Source of the DNA: Meiothermus rufus DSM 22234
GTDB lineage: Bacteria > Deinococcota > Deinococci > Deinococcales > Thermaceae
DNA: 58,264 bases
Assembly: GCF_000423425.1 (NCBI RefSeq)
Contig: NZ_AUHY01000014.1
Span: forward strand, 1-58,264
Direction of reading: 5' to 3'
This document shows positions 25,047 to 38,356 of the stretch, in pieces. Each line of letters begins with the position of its first letter. The first letter of the stretch is position 1. The notes below the pieces were generated by a model. That model saw only the letters and a list, made by a program, of their open reading frames with translations. It was not told where the DNA came from and did not search any database. A program made the translations under genes and the position numbers.

Positions 25047-26918
25047 CTAAGCGTAGCGCAGCCGGGCTAAGGGGGTTTTGCCCATGGCCTCGAGGGTTTG
25101 GCCCAGGGTAACCAGGCCGCGCCCTTCTAGGAGGGGCAGCATGCGGCAAAAGACCTCGGCGGTCATCAGGGTATCGCCCAAGGCGGTGTGCCGCCCCAGC
25201 ACCGGCACCCCAAAACGGGTACAGAGCGCCTCGAGGCTGTGCGAAGGGGCCTCGGGAAAGAGCACCTGGCCCAGTAGCAGGGTGTCCAGCAGGGGGCCGC
25301 GGAAGGCCAGCCCTTGCCGTTGCCCGGCTTTTTGCAAGAAGGCCAGGTCGAAGGCCCCGTTGTGGGCCAGAAGCAGGGTCTCCTCCTGGAAGCGGTAAAA
25401 CTGGGGCAGCACCTCCTCCAGCCGGGGCTTGCCCTGCAGGTCTTCCCAGGTTAGGTCGTGGATCTGGGTGGCGGCTATGGGAATGGGCCGGCCCGGGTCG
25501 GCCAGGGCCTCGAAGCTTTCCTCCAGCAGACGGTCGCCCAGCAGCCGCACCGCCCCGATGGCGATGATGCTGTCGCGCTCGGGGTCCAGCCCGGTGGTCT
25601 CGAGGTCGAAGGCGGTGTAGAGCAGGCTGCGCAAAGGGCGCTGCAGAAGCTCGCGGTCGGGGGGCTCGAGCAGGCGCAGGTCGAAGGTGGGCGGGCGCTC
25701 GCCTGCGCGGCTTGCGGGCGCGGGCGGCTCGGCCAGGCTGGGCAGGAGCAGCACCAGCCGCTCGCCCTCGAGCCAGGCTTCACCTCCTTGCTGGCTCACC
25801 GCCTGCAAAAAGGCGGGGGGCACCTGGGCTACCGGGAAAAGCTCGAGGCGGGCCAGGCCCTTCCAGGGCCGCCCCTGGATGTAAAACCCCTCGGCCTCGC
25901 GGGCCAGGGGCCCCAGGGCCTGGAGCAAAGCGGCCCGGTCGACCGCCACATAGGTCTCCTCGCTCACGTCCAGCCCAGGGGCGAAACCTAGCCGATCCTC
26001 CAGGGCCCGGGCCAGGGCCAGGGCCAGTGCCTTGAGGCTCTGGGCCTCCCGACGGGGGGCTTCCTCCTGGCGCAAGAGCTCGGCCAGCCGCTCGGCCTCC
26101 TGCCGCAACAGGGCCAGAAAGGGGCCCTGCTCGGCGGGGGGTACCCGCGGCAGCACCTCGGCCAGGCTGCGTAAAGCCCCGGTGCGGGCCCGCAGCTGGC
26201 GGAATAGCGCCCCCAGGTCCTGCTCGGCCTCGGGCTGGGTGAGCATGAGCACAAACCCCCCACCGGCCTCCTCCAGCTTTAGGGCTTGCAGCCGGAAGTC
26301 CTCCAGGCGAAAGGGCAGGCCTGGGGCCTCCAGCGCGTGCACCAAGAGGTGCCGGTCCAACAGGCCATACAGGCTTTTGCCCAGGGCCAGGCCCGGCAGA
26401 AAGCCTTTGGCAATGGGGTTGTACAGCACCACCTGCCCCAGCCGGTTGGCCAGGATGACCCCCTGGGGCAACTGGCCCAAAAGCGCCGCCAGCCGGTTGC
26501 GCTCCTCCAGCAGGGTGCGTTTGGCCGCTTCGATGCGGGCTTTGAGTTCTTCCTCGCGGGCCTCGTGCCGCTCGGCCAGCCGGTTGATCAGCTGGCCCAG
26601 TTCGCGCAGCTCCCAGGGGCCTTTTAGCCGCAGGCGGTGCTTGGGGTTGGCCTCGAGGATCACCTCGGCCTCGCGGGCCAAAGCCCTCGAGGCCGCCAGG
26701 TAGCCCAGGAAAAGGGGCTGTAGCATCAGCCCCAGCACCCCCACCAGCAGCAAAACCAGCAGCAGCAAAGCCGGCACCCGCTCGTACAGGGCTTTCTGCA
26801 GCAGGGTCTGCCCCTCGGGGCTCAGGGCCGAGAAAAGCAGGTAGTACGTGGCCAGCCAGAAGCCCAGCAGCAGCACCAGGCCCAGGGCCAAAGCCGCGGC
26901 GAAGCGCAACAGGTTCAC
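25047..26918 (-). CDS. Membrane sensor-like protein fused to a DEDDh 3'-5' exonuclease
   Basis: A 623-residue fusion. Two N-terminal helices (about 6-32 and 49-73) lead to a HAMP/coiled-coil region (80-140), a PAS-like fold (VILANRLGQVVLYNPIAKGF), and then a stretch with the layout of a histidine kinase but no phospho-accepting H-box (QLRARTGALRSLAEVL stands at its place) and no N- or G-boxes. After a Pro/Ala linker (about 398-430) comes a DnaQ-type exonuclease with the full active site: Asp438, Glu440, Asp524, His577, Asp582. DnaQ-like genes are known members of acetate symporter/CrbS clusters. It overlaps the response regulator by 4 bp. Its nucleic-acid substrate is unknown. Confidence 0.88.
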   Translation of the reverse strand: MNLLRFAAALALGLVLLLGFWLATYYLLFSALSPEGQTLLQKALYERVPALLLLVLLLVGVLGLMLQPLFLGYLAASRALAREAEVILEANPKHRLRLKGPWELRELGQLINRLAERHEAREEELKARIEAAKRTLLEERNRLAALLGQLPQGVILANRLGQVVLYNPIAKGFLPGLALGKSLYGLLDRHLLVHALEAPGLPFRLEDFRLQALKLEEAGGGFVLMLTQPEAEQDLGALFRQLRARTGALRSLAEVLPRVPPAEQGPFLALLRQEAERLAELLRQEEAPRREAQSLKALALALARALEDRLGFAPGLDVSEETYVAVDRAALLQALGPLAREAEGFYIQGRPWKGLARLELFPVAQVPPAFLQAVSQQGGEAWLEGERLVLLLPSLAEPPAPASRAGERPPTFDLRLLEPPDRELLQRPLRSLLYTAFDLETTGLDPERDSIIAIGAVRLLGDRLLEESFEALADPGRPIPIAATQIHDLTWEDLQGKPRLEEVLPQFYRFQEETLLLAHNGAFDLAFLQKAGQRQGLAFRGPLLDTLLLGQVLFPEAPSHSLEALCTRFGVPVLGRHTALGDTLMTAEVFCRMLPLLEGRGLVTLGQTLEAMGKTPLARLRYA

Positions 26919-29636: not shown

Positions 29637-29809
29637 CTTGGCTCTTCCTCGTTACCCCGGCTGGGCAGGCCCCGGTTCAGCACGATGAGCAACCCCCAGG
29701 CAGCAAACAGGTAGACCGCCTGGGCCAGCCCGCCTGGGGGCAGATAGAGCAGGGGATAGCTGAACAAAAGCAGCCCCAAAGCGAAGAGAAAAAGGCTTCG
29801 CAGCTTCAT
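29633..29809 (-). CDS. Small membrane protein, 58 aa, between DUF294 and kinase genes
   Basis: Translated directly from the sequence: MKLRSLFLFALGLLLFSYPL begins the first helix, a second helix runs LAQAVYLFAAWGLLIVL, and the tail RGLPSRGNEEEPR is charged. The ATG overlaps the stop of the DUF294 gene and its TGA overlaps the ATG of the kinase gene, both as ATGA. That arrangement, the hydrophobic pattern and Leu-rich codon use make it a real gene. It may be a subunit of, or chaperone for, the symporter-kinase. Function unknown. Confidence 0.8.
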   Translation of the reverse strand: MKLRSLFLFALGLLLFSYPLLYLPPGGLAQAVYLFAAWGLLIVLNRGLPSRGNEEEPR

Positions 29810-31557
29810 CGTATCTGGAACCTTTGCAGGGTGGCCTCCTGGGCCTGTAGGATGGCCTGGAAAACCTCCTTTAGCCGCCGGGTCTCCCGGGGGCTTAGCT
29901 CGGCCAGGCGAACCCGGTTGGTGGGGGGCTGGCCCTGGCGCAAGGCCGCAAGCTGCTGGCGCAGCCGCAGCTCGAAGAGGAAGGCATACCCTTCGGCCAG
30001 GGCTTCGCTGGTGGCCGGGCTCAGGTGGCCGGCCTGGGCCGCTGCGTTGAGGCGAGCCAGGGTGCCGCGGGCCCGACTCTGGGCTAATAGGCCGTATAGC
30101 CGGGCCAGGCTCACGATGGGGGCGATGCCGGCGCGTTTGAGGTCCAGCTCGCCACCGGGGGCCTGCAGCCGGCCAAACAAGCCTAAAGGAGGGCGGAAGG
30201 CCAGGCTGGCCTTGGCCAGGTGGTACAAAAACACCCCCCGGCGGGCCCGCTCCAGGATCAGCTCATCCAATGGGGCCAGCTCGAGGGAGCCGTAGACCCC
30301 TCGGAAGTCGAAGAAAATCTGGGCCTCGAGCAATGCCTGAGGCTCGGGGTTTTCCATGTATTGCAGCAACATCGCCTGCCAGGCAGCCAGGCTCTGCCGG
30401 TATCGGGTGGCCATAAACCCTCCCTGGCAGTAGGGGAAACCAGCCTGGTGTAGCCCCTCCACCACCTCTTCGGCCAGGGCCTGAAAGTAGTCTGCCCCAG
30501 TTTCCTGGCCCAGTACCAAGGCGTTGTCCTGGTCGGTGAGCAGGGCCTGTTCCTTGCGGCCCTCCGAGCCGTAGACCACGAAGGCGTAGGGCACCGGGGG
30601 TGGGCCCAGCCGGGCCTCGGCCTGGCGCAGCAGGCGCCGGATGAGGGCATCGTTGAGGGTGGCCACTATCTCCCCGATGCGCAAAGCCGGCACACCGCCA
30701 TTGAGCAGGTTTTCGACCAGGCGGCCCAGGGCTTGGCCGTACTGGCTTAGCTCCAGCCGCTCGATGCGTTTGAGCAGGAAGAGGGGGCTTTGGGTCTGGG
30801 CCTCGAGGTAGGTGGTGTGGGTGATGACCCCCAGAAAGCGATTCTCCTGGCTGAGGGGCAGGTGGTGGATGCCCTGCTCGACCATGTAGGCCAGGGCCTC
30901 GAACAGCGGGGTTTCGCCAGGGAGCGAACGCACCGGCGCACTCATTACGGCGGCCACCTTTGTCTCGGGGCCTAAGCCCTGGGCCAGTACCCGGTTGCGC
31001 AAATCCCGGTCGGTGAGGATACCCGGGGGCTGGCTTTCCACCAGGAGGCTCGAGACCCCCTCCTCGGCCATCTTTTGCGCCGCCTGGGTCACGCTGGCCT
31101 GGGGCGAGATATAGACCGGTGGGCGGCGGAGGAGGCTTAGGGCTGGCTGGAACAGCAGGGCTTCCTCCCGCTCGGGCAGGTGGATGCGCTCAGCCAAGCT
31201 CTCGAGCAGCAGCTCGGCCAGCCGGGGCTGGGAGAGCAACAGGGGCAATGCCTCGCGGGGCAGGCGCAGCAAGCGCACCGGGGTCTGGGCCTCCAGGCTA
31301 TAGCGTGGGGGCTCGCCCGAGAGCAGGGAGGGTAGGGCCAGAAAACTGCCCGGCCCCAGCACCGCCCGCGGCTGGCCGCCCCGGCTAAGCCGCACCTGGC
31401 CTTCCTCTAGGAAGTAGAAATGGCTGGCCGGTGGGCCGGCCTCCTCCAACAGGAGGTCACCTGCAGCATAGGTGGCCCAGCTACTCATCTGCAGCAGGGT
31501 TGTAAGCTGCTCCGCCGGCAGCAGGTTTAGAGGGAAAAGCTCGGTGGCGGTTTCCAT
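29806..31557 (-). CDS. cNMP-binding/CBS/DUF294 nucleotidyltransferase-like protein
   Basis: A 583-residue soluble signalling protein. Residues 5-125 are a cyclic-nucleotide-binding fold (GDLLLEEAGPPASHFYFLEE). Two CBS motifs follow at about 145-255 (VYISPQASVTQAAQKMAEEG, MSAPVRSLPGETPLFEALAY). A GlnD-like nucleotidyltransferase domain contains GSEGRKEQ (330-337) and TDQDNAL. A DUF294 C-terminal helical domain completes it. This family regularly accompanies DUF4212/SSS acetate symporters and is thought to regulate them. First gene of the chained group that ends at 25047; a terminator separates it from the symporter genes. Confidence 0.9.
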   Translation of the reverse strand: METATELFPLNLLPAEQLTTLLQMSSWATYAAGDLLLEEAGPPASHFYFLEEGQVRLSRGGQPRAVLGPGSFLALPSLLSGEPPRYSLEAQTPVRLLRLPREALPLLLSQPRLAELLLESLAERIHLPEREEALLFQPALSLLRRPPVYISPQASVTQAAQKMAEEGVSSLLVESQPPGILTDRDLRNRVLAQGLGPETKVAAVMSAPVRSLPGETPLFEALAYMVEQGIHHLPLSQENRFLGVITHTTYLEAQTQSPLFLLKRIERLELSQYGQALGRLVENLLNGGVPALRIGEIVATLNDALIRRLLRQAEARLGPPPVPYAFVVYGSEGRKEQALLTDQDNALVLGQETGADYFQALAEEVVEGLHQAGFPYCQGGFMATRYRQSLAAWQAMLLQYMENPEPQALLEAQIFFDFRGVYGSLELAPLDELILERARRGVFLYHLAKASLAFRPPLGLFGRLQAPGGELDLKRAGIAPIVSLARLYGLLAQSRARGTLARLNAAAQAGHLSPATSEALAEGYAFLFELRLRQQLAALRQGQPPTNRVRLAELSPRETRRLKEVFQAILQAQEATLQRFQIR

Positions 31558-31644: not shown

Positions 31645-33387
31645 CTAGTCGGGCATGCGCATCTGGAGTACGAACTCCTCCCGTTCCTTGCCCTCGGCGC
31701 TGGTAGCTAGGGAGGCCAGCACCGCAGCAATGGCGTTGGCTGCGACGGAGATCATCCCCCAGGCGATGGTACCGATCTTCTGCCCGAAGAGCACCAGGGG
31801 CGGGGCGTTGAAGACCCCAACCGCCAGCACGTAGGGCAGGGCCACCAGCATGCCTACCACCATTCCGGCTACCACCCCGTAGCGGTTGAGCCGCCGCCAG
31901 AAGATGCCCAACATGATGATGGGGGTGAAGCTCGAGGCCGCGAAGACGAAGGCCCAGCCCACCATCAAGGCCACGTAGCGGCTGAAGTTGGGGTCGCTCA
32001 GGGCCAGGTAGCCCAGGAAGCCGCCGATGAGGCCGATCACCACCAGCATCACCCGCACGAAGCCCACCTCGCCCTCTTCCGAGGCCTGGGGGTTGATGAA
32101 GCGCTTGTAGATGTCGCGCGATACCGCAGTGGACATGGCCAAAAGCAGCCCGTCAGCGGTGGAAAGGGCGGCGGCCAAGCCGCCTACCGCCACCAGCGGG
32201 GCGATGAGCCAGATCATGCCGAACATGTCGGGCATGCCCACCACCACGATGTCGTTGTGGAAGGAAAGCTCGGCGGGTTGGATGATGCCGTCGGAGTTGG
32301 CGTCGTTCACCTTGACCAGGCCAGTGGGCAGCCACTTCTGCACCCAGGGGGTATTCTGTACGACCTCGAGGGGTTTGTTCCACAGCTCGCTGATGGCCCG
32401 ACGGGCAATGGCCGCGTAGATCGAGGCCGAGGTGTAGAGCAACCCGATGAAGAGGAGAGCCCAGCCCACGCTCATGCGGGCGGCGTGCACGCTGGTCACG
32501 GTGTAGAAGCGTACCAGGATGTGGGGCAGGCCCATGGTTCCCAGCATCAGCACCAGCGCGGCCAGTATCCAGTTAAGCTGCCCCGTACCCCCGGCAAACG
32601 GTCGGGCAAAGGGCTCGGTCCAGAGGGGGCTCAGCCCGGCTGCCGCCTCGCGCGACTCCACCTCGCCGACCAGCGGGCCATACTGCACCCAGGGCAAGGG
32701 CAACAGGCCCAGCGCCGCTCCGGCGATCACGATGGGGGTGAGGTACATGGCGATCAGCACCCAGTACTGCACGAACTGCACCCAGGTGATGCTGCGCCAA
32801 CCACTGGTCCAGGCGTAGGCCAGAGCGCCGAATACCCCCACGAAGACCGCGATGGTAGCCGGAATGCCCAGGAAGCGGGAGAAGACCACCCCTACCCCGG
32901 TGAGCTGGGCGGTGAGGTAGGTCAGGGAGGTGATGAAAACGATGATAACCGCGATCACCCGGGCGGTGGGCCAGCCCCCAGCCAGCTTTTCGATCAGCTC
33001 AGGCACGGTGTAGGTGCCCGACTTGCGCACGAAAGGCGCGATGGTGAAGGCCATCAGGGTATAGCCCAGGGTCCAGCCGATCACGTAAGGCAGGGCATCG
33101 AAGCCCAGAAAGGCAATGATCCCGGCCATGGAGAGGAAGCTGGCTGCGGACATCCAGTCGGCGGCGGTGGCGGCTCCGTTCACCAAGGCGGGAATGGAGC
33201 GGCCCGCCACGTAGAAGTCCCCTGTGGACTGGGAGCGGATAGAAAGGGCCAGCACCAGGTAGACCGCGATGCTACCGATAATCAAAATCAGGGAAGTCAG
33301 GTACTCCCTACCGATGGGGTAGGCCAGCGCGGCCAGAAGCACGACCACGACAGCCGTAATCAGGGGGTTGCGTACTACGGGCGACAT
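31645..33387 (-). CDS. Sodium:solute symporter (VC_2705 / ActP-like acetate family)
   Basis: A 580-residue membrane protein with about 13-14 helices in the SLC5/SSS fold (NGAATAADWMSAASFLSMAG, GYTLMAFTIAPFVRKSGTYT, GGLAAALSTADGLLLAMSTA). The long cytoplasmic or periplasmic loop with VNDANSDGIIQPAEL resembles a calcium-binding EF-hand-like loop, seen in this subfamily. With the DUF4212 protein it forms a sodium-driven importer of acetate or related short acids. Position in a cluster with acetyl-CoA synthetases supports this. It begins 3 bp after the DUF4212 stop. Confidence 0.9.
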   Translation of the reverse strand: MSPVVRNPLITAVVVVLLAALAYPIGREYLTSLILIIGSIAVYLVLALSIRSQSTGDFYVAGRSIPALVNGAATAADWMSAASFLSMAGIIAFLGFDALPYVIGWTLGYTLMAFTIAPFVRKSGTYTVPELIEKLAGGWPTARVIAVIIVFITSLTYLTAQLTGVGVVFSRFLGIPATIAVFVGVFGALAYAWTSGWRSITWVQFVQYWVLIAMYLTPIVIAGAALGLLPLPWVQYGPLVGEVESREAAAGLSPLWTEPFARPFAGGTGQLNWILAALVLMLGTMGLPHILVRFYTVTSVHAARMSVGWALLFIGLLYTSASIYAAIARRAISELWNKPLEVVQNTPWVQKWLPTGLVKVNDANSDGIIQPAELSFHNDIVVVGMPDMFGMIWLIAPLVAVGGLAAALSTADGLLLAMSTAVSRDIYKRFINPQASEEGEVGFVRVMLVVIGLIGGFLGYLALSDPNFSRYVALMVGWAFVFAASSFTPIIMLGIFWRRLNRYGVVAGMVVGMLVALPYVLAVGVFNAPPLVLFGQKIGTIAWGMISVAANAIAAVLASLATSAEGKEREEFVLQMRMPD

Positions 33388-33390
33388 GGG

Positions 33391-33666
33391 CTACTTTCCC
33401 TCCTGGAGCTGTCGCTGCAGCTCCTGGTCCAGTTGGTTCATCTTGGCTGCATACCAGAAGATCAGCACAACCCCCAGCACAATCACGATGAAAGCGTTGA
33501 TGTACCAGTGAAGTGAGGGGATGGGCCCTAGAGTGACCCCTTTAAGCGAGGGCGAGAGAACTGGCAGCACGATGGCGATGATGATCCAGTAGATCAGGGA
33601 GGTGACGGTGAGCCTTTTGACCTGGCCCCAGTACCACTCCCGGATCGCTTCAGGTGTTTCTCCCAT
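33391..33666 (-). CDS. DUF4212 symporter small subunit
   Basis: A 91-residue protein with two helices (SLIYWIIIAIVLPVLSP and WYINAFIVIVLGVVLIFWYAA), the usual DUF4212 pattern beginning WYWGQVKRLT and ending in a charged coiled tail (MNQLDQELQRQLQEGK). ATG at 33666 is chosen because GGAGG lies 5 bp upstream; in-frame ATGs at 33678 and 33684 overlap that site. It is the constant companion of the SSS permease encoded next. Confidence 0.9.
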   Translation of the reverse strand: MGETPEAIREWYWGQVKRLTVTSLIYWIIIAIVLPVLSPSLKGVTLGPIPSLHWYINAFIVIVLGVVLIFWYAAKMNQLDQELQRQLQEGK

Positions 33667-33737
33667 AACAGCCTCCATGTACATGCAAGCAGTCCCACAG
33701 GGCCTCCTTGGGGCTTTTTTTCTGCTTGCTGGGGGGT

Positions 33738-33805: not shown

Positions 33806-35689
33806 TTACTCCTCTAAGGTGGAGAGATCCCCGGGATCCTTGCCCAGTTCCTGGGCTTTGAGGAGCCGGCGCAGAATCTTGCCCGAGCGGGTTTTGGGTA
33901 GCTTGTCTAAGAAGACCAGTTCGGCAGGGGTGGCGATGGGGCCCAGCTCGAGGCGCACGTGCTGGATGATTTCCTCCCGCAGGGCTGGGCTTTTTTCCCG
34001 CCCGGCCCTGAGCACCACAAAGGCCTTGATGTTTTCCCCTTTGATGGGGTCGGGCACCCCGATGACCGCAGCCTCGGCCACCGCCGGGTGCGAGACCAAG
34101 GCACTTTCCACATCGGCAGTGCCAATGCGGTGGCCGGCCACGTTGAGCACGTCGTCGGCCCGGCCCAGCACGCCAAAGTAGCCATCGGGGCTCTGGCTGG
34201 CCACATCGCCGGCGGCGTATACCCAGCCGGGTATCTCGGTCCAGTACTGGGTGTAGCGGGCGTGGTTGCCCCAGACGGTGCGCATCATGTGGGGGAAGGG
34301 GCGCTTGAGCACCAGCAACCCCCCGCTGCCGGGGGGAACCTCGTGGCCCTTAGCGTCCACCACCGCTGCCTCGACCCCCGGCAGGGGCACCCCGGCAAAG
34401 CCCGGACGGGCCTCGAGGGTGATGGGGGTGCCCAGGGTAGGCCCGCCCAGCTCGGTCTGCCACCAGTTGTCGGCCACAAAGCCGCGCTTTCCCCCCTCCG
34501 TCAGGTGCTCCACCGCCCACTGCCAGGCCTCGGGGTTGAGCGGCTCGCCCGCCACCCCAACGAGGCGCAGGCTGGAGAGGTCGTGGCGGGCGGGCCACTC
34601 CGGGCCAAACTTCATAAACATCCGCACCGCGGTGGGGGCGGTGAACATCACGTTCACCCGGTAGCGCTCCACCACGCTCCAGAAGGCCCCGGGGTCGGGG
34701 TAGTCGGGCGCTCCCTCCCGCAAGAGGCTGGTCACGCCCTCCAATAGCGGCGCATAGACGATGTAGCTGTGCCCCACGATCCAGCCGATGTCGGAGGTGG
34801 CCCAGTACACGTCGGTATCCTTCACATCGAAGAAACTGCGCAGGTGGTAGGCGGTGCCCACCATGTAGCCCCCGTGCACGTGCACCACCCCTTTGGGCTT
34901 GCCGGTGGAGCCGGAGGTATAGAGGATGAACAGGGGGTGCTCGCTGTCGAGGGGCACGGCCTCGGCCTTGGGGGGGTGGCTCCAGAGCAACTGGTTGAAG
35001 TCGTGGAAGCGGGGCCCCTGGGGGGCGGCCTTGCTGCGGCAGAACCAGACCGTGGGAATATCCAGGTCTTCGATGGCCTGAAGCACGATGGCCTCGAGGT
35101 CTACCGCCTTGCCCCGGCGGTAGCTTACGTCCCCGGCCATCACCAGCTTGGCCCCGGCGTCCAGGATGCGCTCCCGCAGGGCCGAGACCCCCAGACCGGC
35201 ATAGACCACCGAGTGGATGGCCCCGATGCGGGCACAGGCCAGTATGGCGATGATGCCCTCCAGGGTGAGGGGCATGTAGATGATCACCCGGTCGCCTTGG
35301 GCAATGCCTAAGCGGCCAAGCGCGGTAGCCAGCCGGGCTACCCGGTCGAGGAGTTCGCCGTAGGTCAGCTTTTCCTCCTGGCCGTCCTCCCGCAGGTAGA
35401 GGAGGGCCACCTGGTTGCGCTTGGGGCCTTTGGCGTGGCGGTCGAGGGCGTTGTAGGTGATGTTGGTCTGGCCGCCCACAAACCAGCGGTGGTCGGGGAA
35501 GTTCCACTCCATGACCCGCTCGTAGGGGCGGAACCAGTGAAAGCGCTGGGCCTGGGCCCCCCAAAACCCCTCGGGGTCTTGCAGGCTACGGGTGTACTCC
35601 GCCTGGAAATCCGGCACATTGGCGGCCTCTCGCAAGGCCGCCGGGGCCTGGTAGCGAAGCTCGGTTTTGAGTAGTTGCTCGAGTTCCAT
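33806..35689 (-). CDS. Acetate/short-chain acyl-CoA synthetase (second ACS)
   Basis: A 627-residue AMP-forming ligase. It carries the ATP loop [11 protein letters not shown], the acyl-pocket and aryl motif NWWQTELGG with the tryptophan typical of acetyl- and propionyl-CoA synthetases, the hinge GRADDVLNVAGHR, and the catalytic and acetylatable lysine in [18 protein letters not shown]. It activates acetate or propionate to the CoA ester. Closest relative in the window is the ACS half of the adjacent IclR fusion: a 100-bp tract is identical at DNA level. It begins 16 bp after the stop of that gene, so the two are probably co-transcribed. Confidence 0.9.
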   Translation of the reverse strand: MELEQLLKTELRYQAPAALREAANVPDFQAEYTRSLQDPEGFWGAQAQRFHWFRPYERVMEWNFPDHRWFVGGQTNITYNALDRHAKGPKRNQVALLYLREDGQEEKLTYGELLDRVARLATALGRLGIAQGDRVIIYMPLTLEGIIAILACARIGAIHSVVYAGLGVSALRERILDAGAKLVMAGDVSYRRGKAVDLEAIVLQAIEDLDIPTVWFCRSKAAPQGPRFHDFNQLLWSHPPKAEAVPLDSEHPLFILYTSGSTGKPKGVVHVHGGYMVGTAYHLRSFFDVKDTDVYWATSDIGWIVGHSYIVYAPLLEGVTSLLREGAPDYPDPGAFWSVVERYRVNVMFTAPTAVRMFMKFGPEWPARHDLSSLRLVGVAGEPLNPEAWQWAVEHLTEGGKRGFVADNWWQTELGGPTLGTPITLEARPGFAGVPLPGVEAAVVDAKGHEVPPGSGGLLVLKRPFPHMMRTVWGNHARYTQYWTEIPGWVYAAGDVASQSPDGYFGVLGRADDVLNVAGHRIGTADVESALVSHPAVAEAAVIGVPDPIKGENIKAFVVLRAGREKSPALREEIIQHVRLELGPIATPAELVFLDKLPKTRSGKILRRLLKAQELGKDPGDLSTLEE

Positions 35690-35704: not shown

Positions 35705-38356
35705 TTAGGGTTCTAGTGTGGAAAGGTCGCCAGGGTCGGCGCCTAGCTCCTGGGCTTTGAGCAGGCGGCGCAAAATTTTGCCACTCTTGGTGCGGGGCAG
35801 GTGCTCGAGGACCTCCACTTCGGTATGCAGGCCGGCGCTACCTAGCTGGCGGCGCAGATAGGTGGCCAGTTTGCTGGCCATAATCTCACGGACCTGGAGG
35901 CTACTTTCTCGGGTTTTGAGCACCACGTAGACCTTGATGACCTCGCCGTGAATGGGGTCGCTCAAGCCCACCGCAGCGGCCTCGGCTACCGCAGGGTGGG
36001 CCAGCATAGTTCCTTCGATCTCGGCGGTGCCAATGCGCAGCTCGCCTACCTTAATCACGTCATCGGAGCGGCCCAAAAGGGCGATGTACCCCTCGCTGTC
36101 GCGCACTGCCAGGTCGCCGGTGGCATAGACCCCCGGGATGCGCTGCCACTGTTCGGCGTAGCGCTCCGGGTTATTCCAGAAAGTGCGCATGAAGTGGGGG
36201 AAGGGGAACCGCAGCACCAGGTGGCCCTTTTCGCCTGGGGGCAGCTCCCGCCCCTGGGGGTCTACCACTGCCACCTCTACCCCCGGCAGGGGGAGGCCCA
36301 CCTTGCCCGGCTTGACCGGGCAGCACAGGGGGGTGGAAAGGCAGGGCCCACCGGTCTCGGTCTGCCACCAGTGGTCCAGCACATGGGCCAGGTGTTTGGT
36401 AGCCCAGTGCCAGACCTCGGGGGCCAGGTACTCGCCCACGCTGGCCACCAGGCGAAGCTCACTCAGGTGGGCTTTCTTGGCCCAGTCGTCGCCATGCTTG
36501 CGCAGGGTGCGTAGCCAGGTGGGGCTGGTGATGAGCACGTTAACCCCGCACTCTTCCAGGGTCTCGTAAAAGGAGCCGGCGTCGGGGTAGTCCAGCCGCT
36601 CGGCCCGCAGCACGCTGGTCAGGCCCTCCAGAAGGGGGGCGTACAGGCCGTAGCTATGCCCCACAATCCAGGACAGATCGGCGGTGGCCCAGCTGACCTC
36701 CCCCTCCTTCAGGTCGAAAAGGGTGCGCAGGTGGTAGGTGGTCCCCACCATGTAGCCCCCGTGCACGTGCACCACCCCTTTGGGCTTGCCGGTGGAGCCG
36801 GAGGTATAGAGGATGAACAGGGGGTGCTCGCTGTCGAGGGGCAGGGCAGGGGTGGTGGGCCGGTGGGCCTCGAGCAACTCCCAGAACTCCAGCGTATCTT
36901 GCTGCCCATCCCGGCTATGCCACAGGATGGGCATGGTCAGCCCTTGGGTAGCCTCTTCGACCAGCCCGCGTAAGGGAATGGTGCGCCCGGCCTGGTACAT
37001 GCGGTCGGCAGCCACCAGGAGCCTCGCCTGGGTGTCCAGCAGGCGCTCCCGCAAAGCCTGGCTGCCCAGGCCAGCGGGGATGGCTACATGCACCGCCCCG
37101 ATGCGGGCACAGGCCAGGAAGGTTAGGGTGGTCTCCAAGCTGGTCGGCATATAGACCGCCACCCGGTCGCCCGCCCCTACGCCTAAAGCCTGCAGCCCAC
37201 CGGCTAACCTCGAGACCAGGTCGCGTAGCTCGCGGTAGCTTACCTTGTGCACGCTGCCATCGTCGGCCAGCACCACCAGGGCCAGCTGGTTGCGCTTGGG
37301 GCCTTTGGCGTGGCGGTCAAGGGCGTTATAGGTGATGTTGGTCTGACCGCCCACAAACCAGCGGTGGTTGGGGAAGTTCCACTCCACGACCCGCTCGTAG
37401 GGGCGGAACCAGTGAAAACGCCGGGCCCACTCGGCCCAGAAGCTCTCTGGGTCTTGCTGGCTGCGAGCGTATTCTGCTGCGTAGTCTTGCAGGTTGGCGT
37501 TGTTTCGCAGCGAAGCTGGGGCCCATACCGGCTGCTCCTCATAGGAAGGGATGGCGGGGGGTGTCCGAGGGGGTTGTAGTGCAGGCGCGTTCTTTTCCTC
37601 CTCTTCCTTTGGCGTTTGGGCCTGGGGGGGGAAGCTCGAGGCGGCCCGGGCTACCTCCTGCACGGCCTGGGCCAGCCGGGTAAAGGCGTAGGGGAAACGC
37701 CTCGAGGGCACCAGTACGCCCAAGGCCCCCACCACCCGGCCCTCTGGCCCAAAAATGGGTGCGGCCAGGCTGGAAAGGCCCTCGGCGTGCTCCTCGATCT
37801 CCACGGCAAAGCCCAACTGCCGCACCTTGGCCAGCTCCTCCTCGAGGGTCAGGGGGTCGGTGATGGTGAGAGGGGTAAAAGGGCGCAGGTGCTGGAAGTG
37901 GCGGGCCTGAGCCTCGGCCTCCAGGAAGGCCAGCACGGCTTTGCCCAGGGCCAAAGCGTGGAAGCCTTCGGTCACCTGATCCAGGCCCACCAGGCGGGGC
38001 AATCCCTGCCGCCCCCGTGTGCTGAGCCTTAGCTCCCCTTCGCGGCCCAGGAGGGCCAGATAGCTCCGCTCGCGGGTGCGCAGGTAGAGTTCCTCCAGGG
38101 CGTCGCTCAGCTTTTCAGGTCGGGCCAGGGGGGCTGGGGCTGGAGCCAAAGCCGTGCGGGAGAGCCGGTAGGTGCTCCCTTCCCGCTCAGCAAAACCCTC
38201 CGCTACCAGGCTGGCCAGAAGGGCGTAGGCGGTGGAGAGGCTCTTGCCCAGGAAGGTGGCCAGCCGCGCGGCCTCCACGCCCTCGGGGTGCTGGGCCAAA
38301 TAGGCCAGCACGCGCAACGCAGCTTGTACGGTGGTCAGTTTGCGGCTCTGTGCCAT
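35705..38356 (-). CDS. IclR-type transcription regulator fused to an acyl-CoA synthetase
   Basis: An 883-residue single frame. Residues 5-65 are an IclR winged helix (LTTVQAALRVLAYLAQHPEG, KSLSTAYALLASLVAEGFAE). Residues 75-240 are the IclR effector domain (GFHALALGKAVLAFLE, SLAAPIFGPEGRVVGALGVL). A Pro/Glu-rich linker spans about 241-280. Residues 281-883 are a full acetyl-CoA-synthetase-like enzyme with [35 protein letters not shown] and LPRTKSGKILRRL. The gene is transcribed divergently from acs across a 224-bp region with a dyad between the two promoters. I infer a regulator that senses its own substrate or adenylate and controls acetate genes. GRSDD replaces GRADD; activity untested. Confidence 0.9.
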   Translation of the reverse strand: MAQSRKLTTVQAALRVLAYLAQHPEGVEAARLATFLGKSLSTAYALLASLVAEGFAEREGSTYRLSRTALAPAPAPLARPEKLSDALEELYLRTRERSYLALLGREGELRLSTRGRQGLPRLVGLDQVTEGFHALALGKAVLAFLEAEAQARHFQHLRPFTPLTITDPLTLEEELAKVRQLGFAVEIEEHAEGLSSLAAPIFGPEGRVVGALGVLVPSRRFPYAFTRLAQAVQEVARAASSFPPQAQTPKEEEEKNAPALQPPRTPPAIPSYEEQPVWAPASLRNNANLQDYAAEYARSQQDPESFWAEWARRFHWFRPYERVVEWNFPNHRWFVGGQTNITYNALDRHAKGPKRNQLALVVLADDGSVHKVSYRELRDLVSRLAGGLQALGVGAGDRVAVYMPTSLETTLTFLACARIGAVHVAIPAGLGSQALRERLLDTQARLLVAADRMYQAGRTIPLRGLVEEATQGLTMPILWHSRDGQQDTLEFWELLEAHRPTTPALPLDSEHPLFILYTSGSTGKPKGVVHVHGGYMVGTTYHLRTLFDLKEGEVSWATADLSWIVGHSYGLYAPLLEGLTSVLRAERLDYPDAGSFYETLEECGVNVLITSPTWLRTLRKHGDDWAKKAHLSELRLVASVGEYLAPEVWHWATKHLAHVLDHWWQTETGGPCLSTPLCCPVKPGKVGLPLPGVEVAVVDPQGRELPPGEKGHLVLRFPFPHFMRTFWNNPERYAEQWQRIPGVYATGDLAVRDSEGYIALLGRSDDVIKVGELRIGTAEIEGTMLAHPAVAEAAAVGLSDPIHGEVIKVYVVLKTRESSLQVREIMASKLATYLRRQLGSAGLHTEVEVLEHLPRTKSGKILRRLLKAQELGADPGDLSTLEP

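Follow-up and report, generated by a model that had tools for sequence, protein, structure and literature searches.

The last gene of a transport operon in the genome of Meiothermus rufus DSM 22234 is predicted to encode a membrane-anchored derivative of a WalK/VicK-type sensor histidine kinase, whose kinase core would be without catalysis and whose output would be a DEDDh 3'-5' exonuclease. The gene lies in a window of 58,264 nucleotides, the whole stretch of DNA analysed here. The domains of this fusion are all known; their combination appears to be uncharacterised. Two-component signalling usually ends in transcription, in a second-messenger enzyme or in a protein interaction, and among characterised proteins we are aware of none with a nuclease output borne directly by a histidine-kinase fold. 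A literature search confined to open-licence papers, and hence weak evidence of absence, found no description of a pseudokinase-nuclease fusion. As a tentative first choice, we propose that the protein is a WalK/VicK-derived membrane sensor that works as a pseudokinase in the manner of DivL but has a nuclease as its output, with the kinase CrbS as its probable modulator through a single-domain receiver. A dead kinase may in this way relay a signal to a nuclease, and distantly related bacteria carry the same fusion in operons of a similar kind. If true, the DivL principle would reach beyond a single developmental pathway into metabolic control in more than one phylum, and a starting point would be gained for explaining the as yet unexplained DUF294-exonuclease pairs that many bacteria, Pseudomonas and Vibrio among them, have next to symporters.

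The fusion is encoded on the minus strand, a detail absent from the original prediction, and its domains and neighbouring genes are listed in Table 1. Hydropathy bore out the two membrane helices that had been claimed; as the loop between them has about 17-20 residues, the fusion has no room for an extracytoplasmic ligand or sensor domain. A long helix lies between the membrane part and the PAS-like region, and the latter was recovered by family-level PAS matches and by the WalK PAS structure. The HAMP assignment that accompanied these claims proved to be the weakest, with a match in one of 25 homologous fusions (0.049) and none for the window protein itself. A conserved YDFDLL-like motif is found in the linker joining the CA-like region to the exonuclease.

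Table 1. Features of the fusion gene and of the surrounding operon (positions in the window).
Feature	Position	Strand	Remarks
Fusion gene	25047..26918	minus	TM-TM-helical/HAMP-like-PAS-pseudo(DHp-CA)-DEDDh exonuclease; 623 aa; GTG start 26918, stop 25047
Two membrane helices, residues about 3-30 and 47-75	26694..26912	minus	hydropathy
PAS-like domain, residues 141-228	26235..26498	minus	family-level PAS matches; WalK PAS structure 4mn5, E=9.6e-7
DHp-like two-helix region, residues 235-290	26049..26216	minus	without phospho-His; omega 0.57 in Thermus
CA-like (HATPase-like) region, residues 291-398	25725..26048	minus	without N-box Asn; omega 0.40
DEDDh 3'-5' exonuclease domain, residues 431-600	25119..25628	minus	D438, E440, D524, H577, D582; omega 0.18
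Single-domain receiver, 118 aa	26915..27271	minus	Asp52 and Lys102 conserved; 4-nt GTGA overlap with fusion; omega 0.23
CrbS-like SSF/histidine kinase, 797 aa	27243..29636	minus	intact H-box (SHELRTP) and N-box; 29-nt overlap with receiver
Small membrane protein, 58 aa	29633..29809	minus	between DUF294 and CrbS; ATGA overlaps on both sides
cNMP-CBS-DUF294-DUF294_C putative nucleotidyltransferase	29806..31557	minus	GS...DQD motif
Sodium:solute (acetate-type) symporter	31645..33387	minus	
DUF4212, small subunit of symporter	33391..33684	minus	
Acetyl-CoA synthetase-like enzyme	33806..35689	minus	

Pfam searches with the window fusion protein alone gave no match to HisKA, HATPase_c, PAS or HAMP. 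Across the 25 homologous fusions, PAS models matched up to nine members, while HATPase_c (best 0.0016) and HisKA (best 0.038) were each matched in two. A profile made from the N-terminal parts of 15 fusions matched the VicK-like structure 4i5s (E=5.7e-16) and the ThkA structure 3a0r (1.5e-14), in both cases spanning PAS-DHp-CA (residues about 125-398), as well as several WalK PAS and HK853 entries. The full-length AlphaFold model, for which the input was 10 Thermaceae sequences, had a mean pLDDT of 58 and a poorly modelled nuclease part; a model of residues 141-398 was confident in the CA-like part only (blocks of pLDDT about 75-86). Foldseek matches of both models were nearly all histidine kinases or relatives, including WalK, as the original prediction of a kinase-like region would have it, and those of the full-length model included DivL (4q20). 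Only the fold family of the matches was used from these low-confidence models, and the fold so obtained is support rather than proof because the TM-scores were low and the models shallow. By profile and fold searches, the N-terminal two thirds of the fusion appear to belong with the WalK/VicK-type histidine kinases. The TM-TM-(HAMP)-PAS-DHp-CA order and the sequence-profile match are common to both, but the fusion differs in having no H-box, ATP site or extracytoplasmic PAS, and in carrying an extra C-terminal nuclease.

The kinase-like region had been described as lacking the phospho-accepting His and the ATP boxes, and the alignment of the 25 fusions upheld this. The H-box His and the N-box Asn were absent at the aligned positions in all 25, with Gln, Glu, Ala or other residues in place of the His, and no ATP-lid or G boxes were recognisable in the CA-like region of the window fusion. 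Profile searches found neither a functional H-box nor a functional ATP site in the window protein. The least degraded kinase remnants are those of Cupriavidus, which have LTQDARATLANIR where xSHELRTPLxxIR would stand. A His retained in some members (LRRHAAT, Paracoccus yeei) is not aligned with the H-box. Loss of the H-box and N-box residues across all members rules out a functional kinase.

The exonuclease site is complete, as predicted: Pfam RNase_T matched residues 436-590 (E=1.6e-30), and the five Exo I/II/IIIe catalytic residues of Table 1 are all present in the window fusion and invariant across the 25 fusions. The best sequence matches of this domain were the proofreading domains of PolC (E=3e-29 for the PolC exonuclease 2p1j) and DnaQ rather than oligoribonuclease. 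The complete DEDDh motif set is common to the fusion nuclease and PolC/DnaQ-type exonucleases, but the former has no polymerase attachment, is membrane-anchored and is encoded within a transport operon. A second messenger had been suggested as a substrate; judging by the sequence matches, nothing would favour it over RNA or DNA. Database annotations of the fusions read only 'exonuclease domain-containing protein', '3'-5' exonuclease' or 'DNA polymerase III subunit epsilon'. A role in anti-phage defence was considered and rejected, with PADLOC matches limited to the generic DEDDh domain and neighbouring genes that are metabolic. A DEDDh exonuclease fused behind Sel1 repeats was also encountered, on the megaplasmid of Methylorubrum extorquens AM1 (locus L143, 6345-8678, plus strand).

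The gene order of the operon is acs, DUF4212, symporter, DUF294, 58-aa membrane protein, CrbS-like kinase, receiver and, last, the fusion. Translational coupling of the five genes from DUF294 to the fusion is suggested by their ATGA, ATGA, 29-nt and GTGA overlaps, and the claim that receiver and fusion are chained genes thus holds, GTGA being common to the stop of the former and the start of the latter. The CrbS-like protein gave Pfam matches to HisKA and HATPase_c. The 58-aa hydrophobic ORF had no Pfam match, and a similar small hydrophobic ORF is found in the equivalent position in Thermus and Paracoccus. In the receiver, Pfam identified a receiver domain only, with no output domain and, unlike in CrbR, no DNA-binding domain. 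The window operon therefore shares with the CrbS/CrbR system an SSF-linked histidine kinase beside acetate uptake genes, but differs from it in this receiver and in its chaining to a nuclease fusion. Beyond acs lies a gene of 883 codons (35705-38356, minus strand), one among three adjacent Acs-like genes, that encodes, in a single protein, an IclR-type regulator with HTH and effector domain and an acetyl-CoA synthetase-like enzyme.

Among 111 genomes of the phylum, orthologues of the fusion were found in nearly all Thermus genomes (more than 20, with the same gene order), in one genome of another genus (G019) and in the window genome, but the remaining 17 genomes of its genus had none. The CrbS symporter part was present in 25 of 50 family genomes, namely those with a full-length or frameshifted fusion; a single scan of genome contigs returned Thermus only. 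Outside the phylum, where the proteobacterial data are plasmid records, the fusion is carried on large plasmids of Cupriavidus, Paracoccus, Marivivens, Ruegeria, Limimaricola, Rhizobiaceae and others. The occurrence of this architecture with conserved gene order in both Thermus and Proteobacteria is far beyond chance. In the nuclease-domain tree, the fused nucleases all fell within one clade (87/92), where the Thermaceae group was sister to the Cupriavidus/Paracoccus denitrificans group (86/91), which holds the other CrbS-containing operons. This placement, in a midpoint-rooted tree with long branches, suggests transfer between phyla.

Based on these observations, we propose that CrbS would sense substrate at its symporter domain and phosphorylate the adjacent single-domain receiver, which would then dock onto the DHp/CA-like region of the fusion, as DivK~P does on DivL. 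Docking, together with the PAS/membrane part, would alter nuclease activity at the membrane. In a more weakly inferred step, the nuclease may trim or remove either the nucleotide product that its DUF294 partner makes or an uptake-pathway transcript, whereby uptake and activation of acetate-like carbon sources would be adjusted. The core of the system would be the PAS/membrane part with DUF294, and the receiver link an add-on lost in several lineages. DivL of Caulobacter has neither kinase nor phosphatase activity, yet binds DivK~P specifically (PMC4211667). The points in common are a histidine-kinase fold without kinase activity or phospho-His, a PAS domain upstream and a single-domain receiver as the input (the likely input here); DivL, however, has the kinase CckA as its target and carries no nuclease, and the kinase core of the fusion is far more degenerate. 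The likeness concerns a core that is kinase-dead by sequence and, on the receiver side, only co-occurrence and adjacency.

The constant partner of the fusion is DUF294, more so than the receiver, a point that the original prediction missed, as it did the retention of the PAS/membrane part where the receiver has been lost. All fusion loci sampled have a DUF294 gene next to the fusion, as does every sensor-less member checked next to its nuclease; where examined beside the nuclease, DUF294 had a complete GS...DQD nucleotidyltransferase motif (21 of 21 loci). Standalone DEDDh nucleases that follow DUF294 in Meiothermus and Vibrio belong to a clearly different lineage, outside the fusion clade, so that two DEDDh lineages pair with DUF294. 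Such a pair stands beside a sodium/sugar symporter in Salinivibrio and in a sugar-acid region near pectin genes in Vibrio pelagius. In P. putida, PP_0353 (RNase_T) is in an operon with PP_0354 (DUF294) under the control of MxtR/ErdR, which correspond to CrbS/CrbR; deletion of PP_0353 impaired growth on pyruvate but not on acetate, whereas for a PP_0354 mutant no defect was seen with any carbon source tested (PMC9927547). This bears out the statement that DnaQ-like nucleases occur in acetate-symporter/CrbS clusters. As in the window, a DUF294-linked nuclease lies within an acetate/CrbS system, but PP_0353 is reported without a sensor part and is likened here by gene context, not by nuclease lineage. 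The window's genome also holds a second DUF294 gene (L113, 4060-5609, plus strand, contig C40), which is broken by a frame change with about 46 residues missing and has no adjacent nuclease, in contrast to the intact DUF294-nuclease pairs of related genomes.

It is conceivable, though we consider it doubtful, that DUF294 modifies a protein (the symporter or Acs, perhaps) or an RNA by adding nucleotides, that the DEDDh domain removes them and that the sensor only times the removal. The complete motif beside the nuclease in all 21 loci argues for such a scheme, as does the presence next to DUF294 of two well-separated DEDDh lineages, also near sugar symporters and pectin genes. Set against it, gene adjacency is not biochemistry, the substrates of both enzymes are putative, the tree is midpoint-rooted with long branches, and the PP_0353 and PP_0354 mutants differ in phenotype (PMC9927547). 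That the whole constitutes a phosphorelay from CrbS through a free receiver and a dead kinase to an exonuclease, which would counteract the nucleotidyltransferase of the same operon and yield a transport-coupled reversible nucleotide mark, seems unlikely.

The DivL-like reading of the fusion ascribes a role to the receiver, and here the distribution of the two is informative. The pseudokinase region measured 182-238 aa in all 16 receiver-bearing loci sampled, and 139, 14, 10, 14, 14, 92, 222, 91 and 220 aa in nine receiver-less loci, being shortened or deleted in seven of the nine (Mann-Whitney p=0.002; naive Fisher p=7e-5, ignoring kinship); these p-values are only indicative because the loci are related and non-random, coming from one phylum plus plasmids. 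On the tree, the losses seen without a receiver are scattered over at least four positions (G019; the Ruegeria group with Limimaricola; Agrobacterium; Shinella). In Ruegeria, Limimaricola, Tateyamaria and Tritonibacter the pseudokinase region is deleted outright, TM-PAS and nuclease being retained, and in Neorhizobium and Ciceribacter a long pseudokinase region stands without a receiver. Seven loci have receiver and fusion without CrbS nearby (L101, L123, L124, L126, L130, L135 and L138, one of them split), which indicates that the receiver goes with the fusion. Two Thermus genomes (G055, G062) have neither CrbS nor receiver and only a standalone nuclease; it is nested in the Thermaceae fusion clade, and sensor, CrbS and receiver therefore went together. 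The suggestion that the receiver is the input of the fusion thus gains indirect support from its co-occurrence with the pseudokinase region, and the receiver is a candidate for that role. In Marivivens LCG002, the acidic pocket of the receiver (L135, 7313-7672, plus strand) is degenerate (ASSHE), with the phospho-acceptor Asp kept.

Omega values, pooled over close Thermus pairs, were lowest for the nuclease, which at 0.18 is maintained, followed by the membrane helices (0.24), PAS (0.26) and the long helix (0.29). The values of 0.57 and 0.40 for the DHp-like and CA-like regions, against 0.27 and 0.25 for DHp and CA of the working CrbS, make the pseudokinase about twice as relaxed as the working kinase, but not free. 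This relaxation, greatest in the DHp-like region, is the chief argument against a docking face under strict conservation. It would also agree with a rather unlikely alternative in which the kinase remnant is no more than an eroding spacer, the protein a PAS/membrane-tethered sensing nuclease working with DUF294, and the receiver a servant of CrbS, for example as a phosphate sink, without contact with the fusion. The outright deletions that spare TM-PAS and nuclease and the constancy of DUF294 point the same way. However, omega of the region is still below 1, the region is never shortened beside a receiver (16 of 16), and a CrbS-only role leaves unexplained why the receiver is kept beside the fusion in the seven CrbS-less loci.

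Overall, the DivL-like reading draws on histidine-kinase homology without the H and N residues, invariant nuclease residues, the gene overlaps, a receiver with intact Asp and no output domain, the receiver-pseudokinase covariation, the constant DUF294 and the role of PP_0353 in carbon use (PMC9927547). It is opposed by the DHp-like region being the least constrained part, which is odd for an essential docking face, by the Neorhizobium and Ciceribacter exceptions and by the lack of phenotype of the PP_0354 mutant.

DEDDh enzymes include RNases, as is generally known, and the nuclease might degrade selected mRNAs belonging to the uptake or the acetate pathway, an explanation that we regard as improbable. 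It follows a speculation by the authors of the PP_0353 study (PMC9927547), but the closest sequence relatives are DNA proofreading domains and Pfam found no RNA-binding module in the fusion.

Wrongful joining of two genes by annotation or assembly has practically no chance of being correct: although the gene is split by frameshifts in two Thermus genomes and one Paracoccus plasmid annotates it as two genes, it is already refuted by intact copies, one in the window and others in over 20 independent genomes from three bacterial classes. For the window, a frameshift between sensor and nuclease is ruled out by the single unbroken ORF. The frame changes of the two Thermus genomes (L109, 5268-7180, and L110, 4824-6740, both minus strand), for which sequencing error, decay and recoding are alternative origins, lie in a common Pro-rich stretch, close to where the CA-like region ends.
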